Below are positions 22,477 through 31,062 of a stretch of DNA of 64,000 nucleotides, in pieces. The position numbers and the translations under genes are program-made. The stretch spans positions 62,001-126,000 of the forward strand of contig NZ_JACJHY010000005.1 in the NCBI RefSeq assembly GCF_014138625.1, written 5' to 3'. The stretch's first letter is position 1. Every line of letters begins with the position of its first letter. Under the pieces are notes generated by a model, which worked only from the letters and a program-made list of their open reading frames with translations, was not told the DNA's origin and searched no databases. The stretch comes from Aminobacter ciceronei (GTDB taxonomy: Bacteria > Pseudomonadota > Alphaproteobacteria > Rhizobiales > Rhizobiaceae).

Positions 22477-22796
22477 TGGTCCATCCTCTTGAGTAAATTG
22501 TCGAGATCGTCGAAGCGGTCGTTCCAGAAGCCGGACATTTCGGACGTCCAGTCGATCAGCGTCCGCAGCGCATCGCGCTCGACGCTGTAATAGGTGTAGC
22601 GGCCCTGCTGCCGGTCGCGCACAAGTCCGGCCGTCTTCAGGATCTTCAGATGCTTGGAGACCACCGGCTGAGAGACACCGGCCTCGCCCAGCAGGCCGAC
22701 AACGGTGGTATCGCCATTGCGGCAGAGACGCTCGAACAGCCCGCGGCGTGTCGGATCGGAAAGCGCGCGAAAGATCGCGTCCTGGGGTTCGGTCAT
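22473..22796 (-). CDS. ArsR family transcriptional regulator
   Basis: The 107-residue winged-helix repressor is a typical ArsR member: DAIFRALSDPTRRGLFERL at the N-terminus, then the recognition helix VSQPVVSKHLKILKTAGLVRDRQQGR and a beta-wing ending YYSVE. The metal site CVC is absent, so it probably does not sense arsenic or cadmium; this type is common with AHSA1 partners. It leads a four-gene operon. A perfect 18-bp-arm inverted repeat begins four bases upstream of its start, which strongly suggests autoregulation. Confidence 0.9.
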   Translation of the reverse strand: MTEPQDAIFRALSDPTRRGLFERLCRNGDTTVVGLLGEAGVSQPVVSKHLKILKTAGLVRDRQQGRYTYYSVERDALRTLIDWTSEMSGFWNDRFDDLDNLLKRMDQ

Positions 22797-22800
22797 GAGT

Positions 22801-22844
22801 CATACCCAAATGGCTATGAGTTAATGCATAGCCATTTGGGTATG
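22801..22844 (-). promoter_or_regulatory. ArsR operator: long perfect inverted repeat
   Basis: Two perfect 18-bp arms (22801-22818 and 22827-22844; arm CATACCCAAATGGCTATG) flank an 8-nt spacer. It begins four bases upstream of the ArsR start codon. The arms are AT-richer than the surroundings. Besides an operator, the transcript would fold into a strong hairpin right over the ribosome-binding region. Confidence 0.75.
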
Positions 22845-22932
22845 GGATTGTCAATATGGGATAGAAATGTCATGCCGCCGCCCATGTCGGCGGCGGCGAT
22901 CTGCGTCGGAATAGGCTGGCCCCTGAGCCAGA

Positions 22933-24618
22933 TCAGCCTTGTGGTGACGCGGTCTCGACGTCTTCGATGTCGTAGGCCTCGACAAGCTCGGGCTCGGCCT
23001 CGGCATAGACGGCGGTGGGCGTGACGAGGTCTTTCAGGCTGCCGCCCGAACCATCCATGCCGGCGGCGGCCAGGAGCGCGTCGACAAGCGGCTTGTTGCC
23101 GGTGAATCGCAGCAGCTGGTCTGCGAGGTCGCCGGCGCCGGAGCGGTTGGCGCCGTCGCTGCCGGAGCGACCGGCGGAGAAGCCCTGAGTGTCGAACACG
23201 CGGATGCTCTCGATGCGGCTGGCCGGCTCCATCAGTGCCTTCAGCGCCTCCGGCAGCATGCTGATGCGAGCCTGCGTCAGCTCGAACTGGATCATCTTGT
23301 CGGACAGCGTGTTGGAGGCTTCGTTGCGCGCCCGGATGGTCTGGGCGTGGGCTTCGCCCTCGACCTGGATGCCTTCGGCGCGCACCTTCATCGCCTCGGC
23401 ACTGGCGCGGGCCTCGACGAGGGTCGCCTCGGCCCGGTCCTCGGCCGCGGCCTTCTCGGCGGTGGCGCTGACGGTGACGGTGATGGCTTCGGATTCGGCC
23501 GCTTCCTGTGCCTGCAAGATGGCGATCTGGCGGTTACGGTCGGCGATTTCGCGCTCGCGCGCCGTCTGCACCTTTTCGTGGGCGGCGACGCTGAGCGCCT
23601 CGGCCTCGCGGGCCTTGGCCTCGGCGCGCAAGGTCTCCTCGCTCTTCTTGGCAATGGCCACCGCCATGGTCTGGCGGCTCAGCTCGACGTCGCGCTCGGA
23701 GTTGATGCGGGCCTCTTCCTTGGCCTTGCTGGCCGCTGCCGAACGCTCGGCGATCTCGCGCTCGCGCTCGATCTGGGCGCTCTGCTCGGCAAGCTTGGCG
23801 TCTTCCTCGGCCTTGGCCTTTTCGGCGCGGGTCAGCGCCTCCTTGTTGGCGACGTCGCGCTGCTGGTCGAGGCGGGCCTCTTCTTCCTGGCGCTTGAGCG
23901 CGAAGCGCTGCTTGGCGGCGGTCATGTCCTGCTCGGCGATCGCCACTTCGGTCTGGCGGGTGATTTCGTTGCGCTCCTTGCGGCGCTGCTCGGTAATGAT
24001 GGTGAGCTTGGCCAGGCCGACGGCGTCGAACGCGTTGGTTTCGTTGAAGAACTCCTTCGGCGTCTGGTCGAGGCCGGTGAGGCTGACTGATTCCAGCTCG
24101 AGGCCGTTGGAGCGCAAGTCGGTCTCGACAGCGTCCTGCACTGCCTTGACGAAGTCGGAGCGGCTCTCGTGCAACTGGTCGAGCGTGTTGCGGGCCGCCA
24201 CCGAGCGCAGCGCATCGACCAGCTTCGCTTCGACCAGGTCCTGGATTGCCTTGGGGTCGTTGACCCGGTCACCCAGCGTCTGGGCGGCCAGGCCGATGCC
24301 GTCGTCGGTGCCGTCGACGCGGACGTAGAACTCGGCGCGGATGTCGACGCGCATGCGGTCGGCAGTGATGAAGGCGTCCTCGCGGCGGCGATCGACCACC
24401 AGCTTGACGGTGTTGAGCTTGACCCGCGCCAGCGCATGGACGACCGGCAGGATGAGCGCGCCGCCGTCCTTGACGACGCGGCGGCCGCCGACGCCGGTGC
24501 GGACGAAGGCCTCATCGCGCTCGGCGCGGTGGTAGAGCCGGCCGAAGGTGAAGCCGATGGCGGCGACGACGACCGCTGTTATGGCGGCCCAGATCAGGAA
24601 TTCCTGGATAGCTTCCAA
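22933..24618 (-). CDS. Flotillin-like SPFH/band-7 protein (YqiK family)
   Basis: The 561-residue inner-membrane protein has one N-terminal transmembrane helix (FLIWAAITAVVVAAIGFTF). An SPFH domain follows (GGRRVVKDGGALILPVVHALARVKL, then VDIRAEFYVRV), and then a long alanine/glutamate-rich coiled coil (about residues 220-460), the flotillin hallmark. Flotillins organise membrane microdomains and influence fluidity and stress. The start is a TTG with AGGAG nearby. It is the last gene of an operon with a YqiJ homologue and a PspA-like gene, the usual yqiJK-type setting. Confidence 0.87.
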   Translation of the reverse strand: MEAIQEFLIWAAITAVVVAAIGFTFGRLYHRAERDEAFVRTGVGGRRVVKDGGALILPVVHALARVKLNTVKLVVDRRREDAFITADRMRVDIRAEFYVRVDGTDDGIGLAAQTLGDRVNDPKAIQDLVEAKLVDALRSVAARNTLDQLHESRSDFVKAVQDAVETDLRSNGLELESVSLTGLDQTPKEFFNETNAFDAVGLAKLTIITEQRRKERNEITRQTEVAIAEQDMTAAKQRFALKRQEEEARLDQQRDVANKEALTRAEKAKAEEDAKLAEQSAQIEREREIAERSAAASKAKEEARINSERDVELSRQTMAVAIAKKSEETLRAEAKAREAEALSVAAHEKVQTAREREIADRNRQIAILQAQEAAESEAITVTVSATAEKAAAEDRAEATLVEARASAEAMKVRAEGIQVEGEAHAQTIRARNEASNTLSDKMIQFELTQARISMLPEALKALMEPASRIESIRVFDTQGFSAGRSGSDGANRSGAGDLADQLLRFTGNKPLVDALLAAAGMDGSGGSLKDLVTPTAVYAEAEPELVEAYDIEDVETASPQG

Positions 24619-24686
24619 AGTCCGCTCCTATTGTAATGTGCAGCCGGCGGCTTTGCCGGCCAGGAAAACCAGTCCTTCAGGCGATC

Positions 24687-25289
24687 TCAGTCGCTGGTGA
24701 AGGGGATAACAAGGAAGATGCGGTCGCTGCCGGGTGCCGCCGAAACCACGACGACCTCGGCACCCTTCTGGATGATGCTGCCCTGGTCTGCGGGGCGCGC
24801 CTTGATCGTGTGAAGGTCGCCATGTTCGTCGCGCACGCGGATCGCGCCGGGAACGCCGTCATCGAGCGGGCCGAGTGTGACGACGCCACGCCGGCCGATC
24901 ATGTGTTCGCGTGTCACCGCGTAGCTTTCGTCGCGTGGCAGCACCTTGGCGATGCCGTTGCCGACGAGCTTGGTGACGGTGACACTGGCCGGGACGGCAA
25001 CCACCAAGTAAGCCCAGGCCGGCAGGCCAGGGATCGTGCCGTCGACCAGCATGCCGGTTGCGCCGAAGGTGGTGAGCAGCAGCATGCCGAGGATCGAGAA
25101 TGGCACGCGACCGAAATTCAGCCAGTCGAACAGCTCGCCGATGCTGGTGCCGTCGATCATGTCGGCCACGGAATCGCCGAGCGATACACTGCCGGCGAAG
25201 TAGACGACGATCTGCAACGCACCGAGGCAGAGCCCGGCGAGCAGAGGATAGAGATAAAGCGCTGAGGCGGACGTGAAGTCCTGGAGCAT
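24687..25289 (-). CDS. YqiJ-like membrane protein (OB-fold)
   Basis: The 200-residue protein matches YqiJ/DUF1449. Its hydrophobic N-terminal two-thirds has three transmembrane segments (YLYPLLAGLCLGALQIVVYF, SILGMLLLTTFGATGMLV, AYLVVAVPASVTVT). A C-terminal NfeD-like OB-fold follows (IGRRGVVTLGPLDDGVPGAIRVRDEHGDLHTIKA). NfeD and YqiJ proteins accompany flotillins and probably regulate their assembly. It is followed by the flotillin gene 68 bases later and preceded by the PspA-like gene with a 3-base gap, so the three are one operon. Confidence 0.87.
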   Translation of the reverse strand: MLQDFTSASALYLYPLLAGLCLGALQIVVYFAGSVSLGDSVADMIDGTSIGELFDWLNFGRVPFSILGMLLLTTFGATGMLVDGTIPGLPAWAYLVVAVPASVTVTKLVGNGIAKVLPRDESYAVTREHMIGRRGVVTLGPLDDGVPGAIRVRDEHGDLHTIKARPADQGSIIQKGAEVVVVSAAPGSDRIFLVIPFTSD

Positions 25290-25292
25290 CGC

Positions 25293-26408
25293 TTATTCCT
25301 TGTCCTTGATCTGGTCACGCAGGGCGGCGAGCCTCTCGTCGATCCGGCGGTCGCGCCCGAATGCCTCCAGCTCGGCTAGGTCGTCGCTGCGGGACGCGCC
25401 TGCGGGCAGTTCGGTCAGGCGGCCGACGGCGCTGAGGGCTGCGGCGATCCTGTCCTCCGGCGACGGATGCCGGATGCCGGCGGGTGTCGGCTGGCCCTGC
25501 GCCCGATGCTGGTTGGCGCGGCGTGCGATCTTGACCCGTTCCTCGGCATCGCGGCGCGCGGCGGCGGCGGCATTGAGAGCGGCGCGTGAATCGGCGATGC
25601 GGATGTCGACGTCGTCGATCAGCTTGTCGATCGAGGCAACCTGGGCGTTGATGTCGTCCTGCCGGCCAACGCCCGCGCGCGCCAAGTCTTCGCGGCCGGA
25701 ACGCAGAGCTACCAGAATATTGGCCTCCAGCGCCGTGTGCTCCTCAAGTAGATCGTCGCGCTGCATGGCGTAACGCTTGCGTTCGGCGATGAGGGCGGCC
25801 AGACCCGACTTCAGCTCGTCGGCAGCCTTGTCGATCTCGCGGATGGCCTGTTCGGCGACGGCCTCAGGTGCCTTTTGCTCCAGGCTTTCGATCACGGTGG
25901 TGACGAGGCCTGCCGCGAGGCGGGAAACCCGGCCGGAAATGGACTCGGTCTGCATGGCGTCGATCTCCTTGTTTTGCATTTCTCGGGAAAGAGGCACGGA
26001 TAGCGAATAGGTCCCATCCTGTCGGATGAGGTGAGAAAGCGAAATCTTTTCAGGAATGTCGCTGTATCCTGTGACCAGGAAGCCGGCGAGCACGCGGCCG
26101 TGGAGGCTGGCCAGCGAGAGGGTGTCGACGCCCTTGAACGACATCAGCTTTTCGTCGAGCGGCAGCCTGTCGGCCGACCACGATCCGGCTGCGTATTCGC
26201 GGATACCGTTGGTCACCAGACGGGCCGGCAGACCGGTCTGCAATCTGATCTGCTCGTAAGCGAGGCGCTGCAGCTCGAAGGTATCGGCGCGGTTTGACGG
26301 CGTGTGGGCGTCCAAGATGTCGCGAATACCGGCATAGGCGCGAAATGTGTCCGCAAGATCATTGCGGCCGCTTTCATCTAGGATAAGCTTGTAGTTCGCA
26401 GACTTCAT
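25293..26408 (-). CDS. TnpB-like N-terminal domain fused to a PspA/IM30-like coiled coil
   Basis: The 371-residue protein has two unrelated parts. Residues 1-143 resemble the N-terminal (helical REC and beta-barrel WED) part of IS605-type TnpB proteins: an FELQRLAYEQIRLQTGLPARLVTNGIREYA stretch, LPLDEKLMSFKGVDTLSLASLHGRV, then RQDGTYSLSVPL. The RuvC nuclease and zinc ribbon are absent. From about residue 152 a PspA/IM30-like coiled coil follows. The main ATG has AAGGAGG. Met152 also has AAGGAG nine bases upstream (25965-25970), so the PspA part can start alone at 25955. The gene leads the flotillin operon and is probably envelope-stress related; the TnpB resemblance is recognition only. Confidence 0.7.
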   Translation of the reverse strand: MKSANYKLILDESGRNDLADTFRAYAGIRDILDAHTPSNRADTFELQRLAYEQIRLQTGLPARLVTNGIREYAAGSWSADRLPLDEKLMSFKGVDTLSLASLHGRVLAGFLVTGYSDIPEKISLSHLIRQDGTYSLSVPLSREMQNKEIDAMQTESISGRVSRLAAGLVTTVIESLEQKAPEAVAEQAIREIDKAADELKSGLAALIAERKRYAMQRDDLLEEHTALEANILVALRSGREDLARAGVGRQDDINAQVASIDKLIDDVDIRIADSRAALNAAAAARRDAEERVKIARRANQHRAQGQPTPAGIRHPSPEDRIAAALSAVGRLTELPAGASRSDDLAELEAFGRDRRIDERLAALRDQIKDKE

Positions 26409-26425
26409 GCTTGCCTCCTTACTTC

Positions 26426-26479
26426 AATCACTTAGGAGGTGATTTCGTCATTGTCAAGAAAATCACCAAATCGGTGATT
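26426..26479 (-). promoter_or_regulatory. Promoter with two matching 19-bp inverted repeats
   Basis: Two 19-bp inverted repeats of form AATCAC-N7-GTGATT, AATCACTTAGGAGGTGATT (26426-26444) and AATCACCAAATCGGTGATT (26461-26479), are 35 bp apart centre to centre. On the minus strand a TTGACA -35 box (26452-26457) and a TAAGTG -10 (26429-26434), 17-bp spacer, lie between and under them. A repressor bound at the first site would cover the -10 of the TnpB/PspA operon. No regulator gene is adjacent. Confidence 0.6.
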
Positions 26480-26677
26480 GAGGAATTTTTCGTCGGGCTC
26501 CGTCAGGTTGTGCTCGTGGCTCGCCGGCCGTTTCGGCTGGCTGGCGCCCTGTCCGCACTGCCGCGCAAATATGGACTGCGTCCCGGCGTGGCCGGCATCG
26601 CCAAGGCCCTGGCCGACCAGATGGTCCATTTCGCCGGGGGCGACCGGATCGTGCCGGCATCTTGCGAAATGCCGGGA

Positions 26678-26695
26678 CCCTGTTGCACAACAGGG
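26678..26695 (+). promoter_or_regulatory. Hairpin directly upstream of ybaK
   Basis: Perfect 8-bp palindrome CCCTGTTG-CA-CAACAGGG ending one base before the ybaK ATG. The right arm covers the only purine-rich stretch (CAGGG) that could act as the ribosome-binding site, so the hairpin may limit translation. Confidence 0.4.
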
Positions 26696-26696
26696 C

Positions 26697-27170
26697 ATGT
26701 CGAAGACCACTCCCGCCACGCTCGCCTTGACCAGATCAGGCATTCCGTTTGCGCTCGCGACCTATGAGTATGACGCCGGGGCGGAGCGTGTCGGGCTGCA
26801 GGCGGCGGAGGCGATGGGGGTCTCGCCCGGCATCGTGCTCAAGACCCTGATGGTCGAGGTCGACGGCAGGCCGGCTTGCGTGGTGGTGCCCTCCGACAAG
26901 GAGGTCAACATGAAGAAGGTGGCGGCCGCCTTCGGCGGCAAGGCGGCGCAGATGATGAAGCCCGACGCTGCCGAGCGACTGACCGGTTACAAGGTCGGTG
27001 GAATCAGTCCCTTCGGCCAGCGCAAGCAGGTGCCGACGGCGGTCGAGGAACTCGCGACGCTTGAGGACGAGATCTTCCTGAACGGCGGGCAGAGGGGCCT
27101 GCAGATTCGCATGCGGCCCGGTGACCTGATCGCGGCACTGGGCGCCAAGGCCGCCGACCTGATCCGCTGA
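26697..27170 (+). CDS. ybaK: YbaK/EbsC family aminoacyl-tRNA deacylase
   Basis: The 157-residue protein hydrolyses mischarged aminoacyl-tRNA such as Cys-tRNA(Pro). The YbaK hallmarks are visible: VSPGIVLKTLMVEVDGRPACVVVPSDKEVNMKKVAAAFGGK, with the catalytic lysine in LKT near residue 49, and the C-terminal YKVGGISPFGQRKQVPTAVEE typical of the YbaK (not ProX) subgroup. It starts one base after a perfect 18-bp hairpin that may cover its ribosome-binding site. About 220 bases between this gene and the upstream operators hold no other recognisable gene. Confidence 0.9.
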   Translation: MSKTTPATLALTRSGIPFALATYEYDAGAERVGLQAAEAMGVSPGIVLKTLMVEVDGRPACVVVPSDKEVNMKKVAAAFGGKAAQMMKPDAAERLTGYKVGGISPFGQRKQVPTAVEELATLEDEIFLNGGQRGLQIRMRPGDLIAALGAKAADLIR

Positions 27171-27253
27171 CGTTTCGATCCGGTAAGCTTCTTTCTGCCA
27201 AGTCGATGCAAGTCCGGCAGCACCGCTGTTTTCAGGGCCGCACGGGTCAATCG

Positions 27254-28906
27254 CTACTTCCGCTTGTCGGCAAAATGCTGCTTTAGCCTGGCGATCTCGT
27301 CAGGCGACACGTCCTTGATGTCGGCGACCTGCATCCAGGCGTCGATATAGTGCTCGGCGGCGTAGACGTGGCCATAGCCCATCGGCGCGGTGGTCGCCAT
27401 GGCGAGGTCGAGCGTCAACTGCAGGAAGGTGACGACGGGGTACCAGCGCAACTCGGGCGAGACGTCGGGGCCGCGTGGCGTCTTCATCCAGTCCGGCTCG
27501 CTGTAGAGCGCGTGGGTTTCATAGAAGGTGATCGGGTCGGAGGCGTATTGCAGGTAGACCAGGCGCAGTGGGCCCCATTGAGCGCCCGGAATGTCGAGCG
27601 CGTTCTTCTGTGCGGTGAAGCGGACATAGGAGCCGTCACGGAATTCGGGTAGCCACTCCGGCGAGCCGGGATTGCGGTCGTCGGTGATCGAGTGCCAGAT
27701 TCGGCTGGCGAAGGGCGGGCCGCTGAGCAGCGCGCCTTGATAGGGATCTCCGAGGACCTCGAACAGCTCGTTTGACAGTTCGGTGCTGAGCGCACCAAGG
27801 CTGAGGCCGAAGAGATAGAGTTTCGGGCGCGTATCCCTGGGCAAGGTGTGCCAGTAGCCATAGATTTCGCTGAACAGAGCGCGTGACTGCTCGGCACCGT
27901 AGCCGGGCTCGACCAGGAGCGACAGCCAGCTGGCGAGATAGGAGTATTGGGCGGAGACGCTGGCGACGTCGCCATTGTGCAGGAACTCGATCGGGTCGAT
28001 CGCCTGCTCGTCGACCCAGCCGGTGCCGGTGGGCGTGACGATGACGAGCGTCGAACGCTCGAAGCCGCCGGCGCGCTTCAACTCCTCCAACGCAAGTTTG
28101 GCGCGCTGCTGCGGCGTGTCGCCCGACTGCAGGCCGACATAGACGCGGATGGGTTCCTTGGCCGGTTTGCCGGTGAGTTGGCCGATGTCGGCGGCAGTCG
28201 GGCCGGAGGCGATGTAGGAGCGCCCCATGCGGCCGAGATCCTGCCAGCGTACTAGCGACGCGGCGCTGCCGGTCTTGCCAGGCTCGGCGGGCTGGCGGGT
28301 TTCGGCTGGCATCAATTCATCGAGGCGCTGGAACGAGCTGTCCATCACACGCAGGCCGTAACGGAAGATGATGCCATCGGCGGCCGACCAGAACAGGAAT
28401 ACGGCAATCGTGGTGCCGATGACGTAGGAGACGCGCGTCGGCACGAAGCGGCGCAGCTTTTCCGAGACGAAGACAAGGGTCCGCTTGAACAGACGGCCGA
28501 ACGCCACGAGCACGACGAAGGTGACCAGCGCGATGGCGCCAACCTCAAGCGGATGGGCGGTGTCGACCGGGGCAAGCTGCATCAGCCGGCGGATCGAGTT
28601 CTGCCATTCCGACGCCTGCCACAGGAAAGCGAGACCGACGATGCCGCAGGCGATGGCGGCGATCAGCTTGCCGGCGATCAGGATGCGGGCGCGGAGTTCG
28701 GGCAGCTCGAGATAACGCCAGAGCCAGCGCAGGAAGAAGCCGCAGCCATAACCGACGGCAGCGGAAAGGCCCGACAGCACACCTTGGGTCAGGTAGTTGC
28801 GCGGGATCAGCGTGGGCGTCAGTGACGCTGCGAAAAACAGCGTGCCGAGCAGCAGGCCGGTGGTCGAGAACGAAAACCAGTAGCGGACGGCCCAGTTGCG
28901 CAGCAT
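27254..28906 (-). CDS. Membrane alpha/beta hydrolase (DUF2319-like, two-domain)
   Basis: The 550-residue protein has about five N-terminal transmembrane helices (residues 10-190), starting SFSTTGLLLGTLFFAASLTPTLIPRNYLTQG, the signature of the alpha/beta-hydrolase_9 N-terminal region. A C-terminal hydrolase domain has the nucleophile elbow GLSLG (LYLFGLSLGALSTEL). Its start was moved to the ATG at 28906, just before the first helix; the 37 upstream codons are not family-like. Such proteins are conserved in rhizobia and mycobacteria with no proven substrate. A lipid or cell-envelope ester is plausible. Confidence 0.82.
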   Translation of the reverse strand: MLRNWAVRYWFSFSTTGLLLGTLFFAASLTPTLIPRNYLTQGVLSGLSAAVGYGCGFFLRWLWRYLELPELRARILIAGKLIAAIACGIVGLAFLWQASEWQNSIRRLMQLAPVDTAHPLEVGAIALVTFVVLVAFGRLFKRTLVFVSEKLRRFVPTRVSYVIGTTIAVFLFWSAADGIIFRYGLRVMDSSFQRLDELMPAETRQPAEPGKTGSAASLVRWQDLGRMGRSYIASGPTAADIGQLTGKPAKEPIRVYVGLQSGDTPQQRAKLALEELKRAGGFERSTLVIVTPTGTGWVDEQAIDPIEFLHNGDVASVSAQYSYLASWLSLLVEPGYGAEQSRALFSEIYGYWHTLPRDTRPKLYLFGLSLGALSTELSNELFEVLGDPYQGALLSGPPFASRIWHSITDDRNPGSPEWLPEFRDGSYVRFTAQKNALDIPGAQWGPLRLVYLQYASDPITFYETHALYSEPDWMKTPRGPDVSPELRWYPVVTFLQLTLDLAMATTAPMGYGHVYAAEHYIDAWMQVADIKDVSPDEIARLKQHFADKRK

Positions 28907-29098
28907 GCCTATGCCCCCAATCCTATCAGGCCAACTTGCCGCGTGCCTTGTGCTCAGGCAATGGCACAGCGTCCAAATCTGAGGGAAAGGCAAAGCCTTA
29001 GCTGGGAGCGAGCGCATCCATATTGCGGTCCGCTGGCATCTTCACGTTTCGGGCGCAGTTGAAACTGCAGCCTTTCGGGATCTTGGCGTCGCCCACTC

Positions 29099-29135
29099 AA
29101 ATCCTCATGGTGAGCCTGTCGAACCATGAGGATTT
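29099..29135. repeat. Dispersed palindromic repeat (rhizobial intergenic type)
   Basis: Perfect 13-bp arms (AAATCCTCATGGT / ACCATGAGGATTT) flank an 11-base spacer beginning GAGCCTGTC. Very similar short palindromes with the core CCTCATGGTGAGC are scattered in rhizobial intergenic regions. It lies past the prpE stop codon, in the gap before the hydrolase start, and has no T-run. Confidence 0.6.
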
Positions 29136-29151
29136 GGTGCCGTGAGGGCCG

Positions 29152-31062
29152 TCAGGCCACGCCGATGCCGCGCGCCTTCAGCGCCTCCGTGATCTCGTCG
29201 AGGATGAAGGGGTCGTCGATGGTGGCGGGCATCTTCCAGTCCTCGCGGTCGGCAATCTTCTGCATCGTGCCGCGCAGGATCTTGCCGGAGCGCGTCTTGG
29301 GCAGCCGCTTGATGGTGACCACCATCTTGAAGGCGGCGACGGGACCGATGCGGTCGCGGACGAGGCTAACGACCTCCTTCTCGATCGCTGCCGTGTCGCG
29401 GGAAACGCCCGAGTTGAGCACGATGAAGCCGCAAGGGATCTGACCCTTCATGGCGTCGGCGATGCCGATGACGGCGCATTCGGCGACATCTGGGTGTTCG
29501 GCCACGACCTCCTCCATGCCGCCGGTCGACAGGCGGTGGCCGGCGACGTTGATGATGTCGTCGGTGCGGGCCATGATGAACAGATAACCCTCGTCGTCGA
29601 TGTAGCCGGCGTCGGCGGTCTTGTAGTAGCCGGGGAACTCGGCGAGGTAGGCGTTGAAGAAGCGCTCGTCGGCATGCCACAGCGTCGGCAGGCAGCCGGG
29701 CGGCAAAGGCAGCTTGACCACGACATTGCCGAGCGTGCCGCGCCCGACCTCATGGCCGGCATCATCGAGTACGCGCACGTCGTAGCCAGGCATCGGCACG
29801 CAGGGCGAGCCGTATTTGACCGGCAGCAGACCGAGCCCGACCGGGTTCTGGCTGATCGGGTGGCCGGTCTCGGTCTGCCACCAATGATCGATGACCGGGA
29901 CCTTCAGCTTGTTCTCCGCCCATTTGATGGTTTCTGGGTCGGCGCGCTCGCCGGCGAGGAACAGGGTGCGGAATTTCGTAAGGTCGTATTGCGGCACGAA
30001 GAGGCCTTGCGGGTCTTCCTTCTTGATGGCGCGGAAGGCAGTGGGAGCGGTGAACAGGGCAACGACCCCGTGTTCCGAAATGACACGCCAGAATGTGCCA
30101 GCATCGGGCGTGCCGACCGGCTTGCCCTCGAACAGGATGGTGGTGGCGCCGTGTAGCAGCGGGCCATAGACGATGTAGGAGTGGCCGACGACCCAGCCGA
30201 CATCGGAGGCTGCCCAGAAGACTTCGCCCGGCCTGACGCCGAACTCGTTTTCCATCGACCATTTGAGCGCGACCATGTGGCCGCCATTGTCGCGCACCAC
30301 GCCCTTGGGCTGGCCCGTCGTGCCCGAGGTGTAGAGCACATAGAGCGGATCGGTGGCGGCAACGGGGACACATTCGACCGTGCGGCCGGCAGCCTTGGCG
30401 GCACCGACCGTTGCGGCATAATCGAGGTCGCGCCCGGCGACGAGATCGCAGGCCAGCTGCGGCCGCTGCAGGATGAGGCAGTGTTCCGGCTTGTGGCTGG
30501 CGAGCTCGATGGCACCGTCGAGCAACGGTTTGTAGGCGATGACGCGGCCAGGTTCGATGCCGCAAGAGGCCGAGATGATCAGCCTCGGCGTGGCGTCATC
30601 GATGCGGGTGGCGAGCTCTTTGGCGGCAAAGCCGCCGAACACCACCGAATGTATGGCGCCGAGCCGGGCGCAGGCGAGCATGGCAAAAGCAGCTTCTGCG
30701 ACCATCGGCATGTAGATGATGACGCGGTCGCCTTTTTGCACGCCCTGGTCCTGCAGCACGCTGGCGAGCGCATTCACTTCGGCGAGTAGCCCGGCATAGG
30801 TGAATTTCTGCTGCGTGCCGGTGATCGGGCTGTCGTGGATGAGGGCCACCTGTTCGGCGCGGCCGTCCTGCACATGGCGGTCGAGCGCGTTGTAGCAGGT
30901 GTTGCATTCGGCCCCTGCGAACCACTGGCCATAAACGCCGCCCTCGGCGTCGAAGACCTTGTCCCAGGGCTTGAACCAGTCGATCGCCCGCGCAGCCTCG
31001 GCCCAGAACCCCTCGGGATCGTGGGCCCAACCGTCATAGACCTCGTGATAGCGAGATGGCAT
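29152..31062 (-). CDS. prpE: Propionyl-CoA synthetase
   Basis: The 636-residue enzyme ligates propionate (or another short-chain acid) to CoA with ATP. It is the PrpE branch of the acetyl-CoA synthetase family: N-terminal EGFWAEAARAIDWFKPWDKVFD, P-loop YTSGTTGQPKGVV, WWQTETGHP, and YKTADAGYIDDEGYLFIMARTDDIINVAGHRLSTGGMEE. The C-terminal catalytic lysine is in KTRSGKILRGTM near residue 600. No prpBCD methylcitrate genes lie in the window. Gene ends are clear and a GGAAGGA Shine-Dalgarno precedes the ATG. Confidence 0.9.
   Translation of the reverse strand: MPSRYHEVYDGWAHDPEGFWAEAARAIDWFKPWDKVFDAEGGVYGQWFAGAECNTCYNALDRHVQDGRAEQVALIHDSPITGTQQKFTYAGLLAEVNALASVLQDQGVQKGDRVIIYMPMVAEAAFAMLACARLGAIHSVVFGGFAAKELATRIDDATPRLIISASCGIEPGRVIAYKPLLDGAIELASHKPEHCLILQRPQLACDLVAGRDLDYAATVGAAKAAGRTVECVPVAATDPLYVLYTSGTTGQPKGVVRDNGGHMVALKWSMENEFGVRPGEVFWAASDVGWVVGHSYIVYGPLLHGATTILFEGKPVGTPDAGTFWRVISEHGVVALFTAPTAFRAIKKEDPQGLFVPQYDLTKFRTLFLAGERADPETIKWAENKLKVPVIDHWWQTETGHPISQNPVGLGLLPVKYGSPCVPMPGYDVRVLDDAGHEVGRGTLGNVVVKLPLPPGCLPTLWHADERFFNAYLAEFPGYYKTADAGYIDDEGYLFIMARTDDIINVAGHRLSTGGMEEVVAEHPDVAECAVIGIADAMKGQIPCGFIVLNSGVSRDTAAIEKEVVSLVRDRIGPVAAFKMVVTIKRLPKTRSGKILRGTMQKIADREDWKMPATIDDPFILDEITEALKARGIGVA

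Follow-up and report, generated by a model that had tools for sequence, protein, structure and literature searches.

The gene at positions 25293 to 26408 (minus strand) of a 64,000-nucleotide stretch of the Aminobacter ciceronei genome (contig NZ_JACJHY010000005.1; the whole stretch is referred to as the window) encodes, in a single reading frame, a domain of apparent TnpB descent followed by a PspA/IM30 coiled coil, and it heads an operon which continues with the genes of a YqiJ-like membrane protein and a flotillin. Our analysis suggests that many rhizobia and related bacteria carry this nuclease-less, target-reading half of TnpB joined to PspA and that this half now switches the operon off without the aid of a guide RNA. 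New here is a promoter palindrome which tracks the N-terminal domain (N-domain). We consider it probable that the protein is a guide-free autorepressor in which the captured TnpB lobe that reads the target-adjacent motif (TAM), mounted on PspA, represses the pspA-yqiJ-flotillin operon via this palindrome. The wider proposal appears reasonably likely as well, if somewhat less so, namely that the TAM-reading lobe has given rise to a class of guide-free transcription factors, that the residue equivalent to Q80 of TnpB helps to set an operator base and that one PspA-fused protein both senses stress and represses its own operon. The elements concerned are located in the window as follows.

25293..26408, minus strand: fused gene, 371 amino acids (aa), ATG start; putatively TnpB-derived WED+REC domain in frame with a PspA/IM30 coiled coil.
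25980..26408, minus strand: TnpB WED+REC domain without RuvC, residues 1-143, as assigned by profile, AlphaFold2 and Foldseek.
25296..25955, minus strand: PspA/IM30 part, residues 152-371, which may also be made alone from Met152 (Pfam and conserved internal start).
25965..25970, minus strand: internal Shine-Dalgarno AAGGAG ahead of Met152 (codon 25953-25955), kept in homologues.
26426..26444, no strand assigned: putative proximal operator palindrome AATCACCTCCTAAGTGATT (given for the minus strand), overlapping the predicted -10 region.
26461..26479, no strand assigned: putative distal operator palindrome AATCACCGATTTGGTGATT (given for the minus strand), immediately upstream of the predicted -35.
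26452..26457, minus strand: predicted -35 hexamer TTGACA, read from the consensus.
26414..26419, minus strand: long-form Shine-Dalgarno AGGAGG of the window's clade; most other members appear leaderless.
24687..25289, minus strand: YqiJ-like membrane protein with an NfeD-like oligonucleotide/oligosaccharide-binding (OB) fold, second gene of the operon (Pfam YqiJ_OB, E 9.2e-11), kept in 24 of 24 loci.
22933..24618, minus strand: flotillin (Band_7 and Flot), third gene of the operon (Pfam Flot, E 1.6e-25), kept in 24 of 24 loci.

Profile comparison and the predicted fold both identify residues 1-143 as a homologue of TnpB's WED+REC lobe that ends directly before RuvC-I, which upholds the TnpB identity proposed for them in the first-pass annotation. 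When a profile built from nine fused domains was run against 398 Pseudomonadota genomes, a single non-fusion match fell below E 1e-3. This match (E 4.2e-12, genome G490) is a TnpB, since its 375-aa open frame contains the Pfam families OrfB_IS605 and Cas12f1-like_TNB; it adjoins an open reading frame resembling TnpA by eye. Further matches of the same profile lay between E 0.001 and 0.9, and the three of them which were inspected (L123, L124, L126) do not resemble TnpB. A profile of mixed composition, containing two other TnpBs as well, matched the artificial-intelligence-designed TnpB-like nuclease 9yyg with E 4.4e-5. A larger profile matched all 16 TnpBs of one clade, 15 at E 7.2e-4 or below and one at 0.017; these are the G490 TnpB and 15 sequences chosen from 60 plasmid records that a search with this protein had listed. 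Three full-length TnpBs belonging to other types were left out of this profile test. In the 687-sequence set searched with the larger profile, the best other entry (the window gene itself aside) reached E 1.2 and no decoy matched. The 16 TnpBs span archaea, Bacillota, Actinomycetota, Bacteroidota, Pseudomonadota and others, the top-scoring one belonging to Rhodovastum, an alphaproteobacterium. Putative transposases and a TnpB-like protein are also among the top matches of the N-domain in a viral library.

An AlphaFold2 model of the N-domain, computed from 33 sequences, has a predicted local distance difference test score of 90.9 and a predicted template-modelling score (pTM) of 0.86. Its topology is that of a WED OB-like barrel with a helical REC inserted after strand 1: residues 2-9 form WED strand 1, the REC helices comprise residues 12-35, 43-58 and 62-74, and WED strands follow up to residue 139. 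In a Foldseek search of the PDB, ranks 1 to 10 are occupied by Cas12f, TnpB, Cas12k, Cas12-2 and TranC chains (best E 3.8e-4), so that the comparison with TnpB structures suggested in the first-pass annotation speaks in favour of the assignment. Compared with TnpB, the RNA-guided nuclease of IS200/IS605 and IS607 elements (ISDra2 structures 8h1j, 8exa and 8bf8), the WED+REC fold and its motifs are alike, including the position of the TAM-contacting Q80. In contrast to TnpB, however, the fused protein is devoid of RuvC and zinc ribbon, has a segment shortened by about 10 to 30 residues downstream of the third REC helix and a mean net charge of -1.8 versus +7.7 (TnpB range -11 to +17), while its gene resides in a host operon rather than in a transposon. 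In accordance with the earlier remark that the nuclease is missing, Pfam detects neither RuvC nor the zinc ribbon (TNB) in the 371-aa chain, which runs on into PspA, and PF07282 has no match in the window's genome.

For residues 1-150 no Pfam match is obtained, and a weak match to the NCBIfam model TIGR01765 (“transposase N-terminal domain”, E 0.062) stays below the cut-off. We rejected TIGR01765 as an assignment, as it was found in 7 of 33 members (best E 0.044) with unrelated families scoring equally well or better (best E 0.00092), and likewise Pfam HTH_OrfB_IS605, which appeared in one of 9 members at E 0.22, not above chance families. The N-terminal part of the real TnpB from G490 is blank in Pfam too, only its RuvC and zinc-ribbon parts being matched; the silence of Pfam on the fused N-domain therefore says little. 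No other family lays claim to residues 1-143 in Pfam, NCBIfam or Foldseek, which disposes of one refuting outcome named in the first-pass annotation. Since RuvC and zinc ribbon were all that Pfam saw of the one clade TnpB scanned (L122/L152, G490), RuvC-less derivatives of TnpB may escape routine annotation, and others may exist.

The coiled coil read in the same frame at the outset is confirmed by Pfam, whose PspA_IM30 covers residues 160-304 (E 1.5e-10, exceeding the gathering score); in a full-length structure model this part consists of two long helices. The window's genome holds a single copy of the fused gene. Among the window's genome and 100 relatives (101 in all) eight match the protein, five of them, the window included, over both parts in one frame and three over the PspA part only. 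A class-wide set of 385 genomes yields 24 matches, six of which extend over both parts, two of these being already contained in the count of the relatives. By an N-domain alignment scan of the species-genome collection 175 loci were confirmed, the best 80 of which were kept; all of these are close to the R-type query (R or Q being the residue of the motif discussed below), hence R-type members are over-represented. In 80 of the 80 kept loci the N-domain runs into PspA in one open frame. The hosts include Rhizobium, Ensifer, Neorhizobium, Bradyrhizobium, Mesorhizobium, Aureimonas, Enterovirga and others, and the fusion is thus not unique to this genome, so that the other refuting outcome named in the first-pass annotation did not arise either. 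In all 24 loci examined for gene order (23 picked from the 80, and the window) the succession fusion, YqiJ, flotillin is intact; the gene indeed leads a flotillin operon, as first noted, and the fusion recurs beside flotillin genes. Overlapping reading frames aside, no further neighbour family is common to at least 6 of these 24 loci. Eleven plasmid records holding most of the gene label it PspA/IM30 family protein (10) or hypothetical protein (1).

Comparison with the gene of genome G009 (91% identical) gives a ratio of nonsynonymous to synonymous substitution rates (dN/dS) of 0.084 for residues 1-143, which indicates purifying selection on this segment. Because of this ratio and of the recurrence of the fusion in many genera the fused reading frame is more than a chance product; the gene is old and conserved. 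A maximum-likelihood tree of 48 of the 102 domain genes and 10 of the 16 TnpBs places the host domains on one side of a branch and the ten TnpBs on the other with a support of 100/100, which is in keeping with a single capture of the TnpB domain.

All 102 domain genes checked are preceded by a palindrome, which lies 28-63 nucleotides (nt) ahead of the domain start (at least one genome is represented twice in these rows, L005 and L089). It is composed of 7-bp arms, mostly AAAGCAC, and a 7-bp spacer (AAAGCAC-N7-GTGCTTT); 5 to 7 of the 7 positions match between the arms. Around the palindrome, a near-consensus -35 and a TA at -10 are found exactly 17 bp apart in 55 of the 102 cases, compared with 0 at each of six shifted offsets. 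In the window two palindromes flank the predicted -35, and the proximal one covers the -10. Six further plasmid genes, from Bosea, Shinella, Agrobacterium and R. daejeonense, all possess AAAGCAC-N7-GTGCTTT. In a seventh (L246) the palindrome is present by reading; the script missed it, and the annotated start falls inside it. For this reason the start annotated for this R. leguminosarum plasmid copy, WP_094088786.1 (L246, 3429), probably lies too far upstream. Of 21 genome handles searched (5-9 Mb each), 20 contain the exact palindrome once, every site being located by its coordinates immediately upstream of the domain gene; as G038 and G937 are the same genome, this corresponds to 19 of 20 genomes. 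The reversed pattern, used as a control, has 0 matches in the same genomes. Two sites of the AATCAC form are present in each of three genomes (the window's own, G009 and G926), all of them at this promoter, and one is present in G928.

The palindrome tracks the N-domain rather than the operon. Among pspA-yqiJ-flotillin operons of the same class it is found in 0 of 11 without the domain versus 22 of 23 with the domain, the 23rd of which has the variant AAAACAC; eight other PspA loci without this operon give one chance match. In G837 (L193) a stand-alone N-domain (185-aa open frame) directly precedes yqiJ and flotillin and is accompanied by a perfect palindrome. A search of this genome with the window's PspA part gives no match at E 0.1 or below, while 10 other genomes in the same search do match; domain and palindrome hence stay together without PspA. 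The G837 domain is the smallest natural version of the N-domain. The sister operons without the domain differ in a further respect, as in 10 of 11 of them a gene is situated just before pspA, compared with 0 of 15 loci with the domain. This conserved gene of about 170-220 codons, seen in ten PspA-only loci (among them L014, L015 and L020), resembles a ribbon-helix-helix protein by eye, with no Pfam support, and may be an alternative local regulator.

In ISDra2 TnpB the TAM is accommodated in the cleft between WED and REC, where Q80 contacts a TAM base (PMC10097598). In the profile alignment the Q/R of an LP[AS][QR] motif of the fused domains falls opposite the matching Q of 9yyg, for which the residue number 80 is our own count. 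Rows with R at this position have C at position 5 of the half-site in at least one arm and rows with Q have G or T, with 48 of 48 rows in agreement (the motif printed for L006 in the 102-gene palindrome table is a script artefact, the residue being R in the alignment). G837 and G865 carry R though other rows of their families carry Q, and both have a C-type palindrome. These data are suggestive of a link between the Q80-equivalent residue and base 5 of the half-site.

All 101 fused members have a Met with a strong Shine-Dalgarno immediately ahead of the PspA part, which generalises the observation initially made for Met152 that a PspA-only product is permitted. With the strongest candidate internal Met taken and pairing computed against the anti-Shine-Dalgarno letters, this signal averages -9.1 kcal/mol compared with -2.0 for the in-frame background and ranks among the best 5% of the background in 97 members; it is stronger than the Shine-Dalgarno of the long start in all 94 of the 101 members for which the latter is computable. 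Codons 144-151, which contain the internal signal, show zero nucleotide changes relative to G009. With the first in-frame start codon beyond the predicted -10 simply taken as the start, 84 of 100 members begin 5-7 nt after this -10, so that most long forms look leaderless; the window's clade has a Shine-Dalgarno at the long start instead. Presumably, both the long form and PspA alone are made.

We propose that a host captured the WED+REC lobe of a TnpB, i.e. a reader of the TAM in double-stranded DNA; the loss of the nuclease would also have removed much of the surface that binds guide RNA. As the palindrome is near-unique in each genome, its regulator is probably encoded in the operon itself, and as an operon product of DNA-reading ancestry the N-domain is a candidate for the DNA reader. 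The long form, assembled into a dimer or higher oligomer through PspA or through the N-domain itself, may bind the operator in a guide-free manner with what was once the TAM cleft. Because the site overlaps the promoter, RNA polymerase would be blocked and the operon repressed. On membrane damage, the PspA part might then relocate to the membrane or join complexes with flotillin or YqiJ, whereby the operator would be freed and the operon induced, a step modelled on the known behaviour of PspA. PspA alone, a product supported by the conservation of the strong internal start, would act as the bulk effector together with YqiJ and flotillin, and the long form as the regulator. In E. coli, PspA is a negative regulator and membrane-stress sensor which inhibits a separate activator, PspF. 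The fused protein would share both roles of E. coli PspA; in contrast to the PspA-PspF pair, it would carry the DNA-reading domain in its own chain.

Several observations weigh against this proposal. With regard to homology, the nine-domain profile reached one TnpB clade only, leaving other TnpBs in the searched genomes unmatched, and against the PDB it retrieved no TnpB and merely two chance matches (E 0.46 and 0.64). The fold matches are moderate, the eight with a probability of 0.99-1.00 having TM-scores of 0.52-0.59 and root-mean-square deviations of 5.4-7.1, and the overall confidence of the full-length model is low (pTM 0.43). The mean net charge of the N-domain is slightly negative, which is unusual in a DNA binder. 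As to the operator, G054 is without an exact palindrome, its site differing by one base, and exact-pattern scans overlook degenerate sites. The AATCAC form occurs three times in G927, once away from the operon. This extra site (L224) is near a transposase-like open reading frame and an unassigned one of 355 aa (both by eye) and perhaps represents a chance occurrence. The covariation between Q/R and the half-site depends on two changes in the tree, i.e. one or two independent pairs, with a sign test which is not significant, and for this reason the link is graded as suggestive. Moreover, four alignment columns track the base perfectly, including the Q80 column; of these, only the latter and a K/R column are two-state. 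Finally, palindromes imply a dimer, and a dimer of the N-domain is putative, while DNA binding and repression by this domain are steps which we infer.

Both the slightly negative charge and the conserved association with YqiJ and flotillin would suit a different role, in which the N-domain is a protein-interaction module joining PspA to these partners or shaping PspA assemblies, with some other, unlinked regulator reading the palindrome. An SPFH protein links PspA to the membrane in B. subtilis (PMC8581546), and a survey of phage shock protein (PSP) systems proposes chaperone-like partners of PspA (PMC11237479). We nevertheless regard this alternative as unlikely: the palindrome follows the domain (0 of 11 operons without it, 22 of 23 with it), a TAM-reading residue covaries with the half-site, and with an unlinked regulator one would normally expect a further site at the regulator's gene, whereas 20 of the 21 handles show a single exact site.

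Guide-free repression by the fused protein must also be weighed against a TldR-like mode of action, in which the domain would bind a guide RNA made elsewhere that base pairs with the promoter. Such guide-keeping repressors derived from TnpB do exist, as TldR proteins are TnpB-like, nuclease-dead and RNA-guided, with an inactivated RuvC and a retained guide RNA (PMC13418256). The fused protein resembles TldR in its descent from TnpB, in its expected lack of nuclease activity, in being tied to a host gene and in its proposed role as a repressor of transcription. In contrast to TldR, its RuvC is gone altogether, no guide RNA was found by an Rfam scan near the gene, and its proposed target is a palindrome read by protein. 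In ISDra2 TnpB much of the contact to the guide scaffold is provided by RuvC (PMC10097598), and the fused domain has lost its net positive charge along with part of the segment that follows the third REC helix. The flank search for an RNA resembling the right-end RNA of such transposons, recommended in the first-pass annotation, gave no Rfam match at the gathering score within 22500-29500 and two chance-level matches (best E 0.24) at a permissive threshold, though Rfam may not cover RNAs of this kind. Furthermore, the conserved element is a symmetric DNA palindrome, one base of which covaries with a protein residue. An RNA-guided mode thus appears very improbable. For the same reasons, i.e. 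loss of RuvC, the shortened segment, the charge falling from +7.7 to -1.8, the lack of a nearby Rfam RNA at the gathering score and the tracking of the domain by the palindrome, the initial description of residues 1-143 as an RNA-binding domain should probably give way to guide-free DNA reading. That the N-domain is a neutral or purely structural relic carried along with PspA, as the occurrence of PspA without the domain in some relatives might intimate, is hardly credible given the dN/dS of 0.084, the frame kept open in 80 of 80 loci and the retention of the domain in G837, where pspA was not found.

PspA-YqiJ-flotillin operons have been described in the survey of PSP systems mentioned above (PMC11237479), and the PspA coiled coil and its neighbours are the same there as in the operon of the window. 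The survey operons feature a CesT/Tir-like partner protein, whereas the fused gene has a TnpB-derived domain in the same chain; fewer than 2% of PspA homologues are stated there to contain repeats or fusions. A term search for “transposase” in two PSP surveys (PMC11237479, PMC9239133) gave no hit, nor did one for “TnpB” in PMC11237479. Among the titles and abstract openings listed for open-licence PMC papers, none refers to a TnpB-PspA fusion or a RuvC-less TnpB transcription factor. Known regulators derived from TnpB, i.e. TldR, are still dependent on guide RNA. If our proposal is true, a RuvC-less TnpB lobe reading DNA through protein contacts alone would constitute a new type of DNA-binding domain, and the reader of TAM or protospacer-adjacent motif (PAM) in the TnpB-Cas12 lineage would be able to stand alone. 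It would also make available a naturally occurring series of readers, each with its matching site, and would explain the control of the PspA-YqiJ-flotillin membrane-stress operon by a single protein in rhizobia and their relatives.

Two PspA proteins from the literature were considered as possible fusions and set aside. RS28825 of R. tropici CIAT 899 (plasmid pRtrCIAT899c), a PspA strongly induced by acid (PMC5936775), is not used as support here; its plasmid, although contained in the collection searched, is absent among the DNA and protein matches to the fused gene of another R. tropici strain, so that RS28825 is apparently a different PspA. Judged by gene number and position, RL1106 of R. 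leguminosarum 3841 (PMC11406972) probably differs from the fusion too. In the window, a divergent open reading frame on the plus strand (26700-27170) resembles a YbaK/prolyl-tRNA-editing protein by eye, and both operators lie between it and the fused gene.
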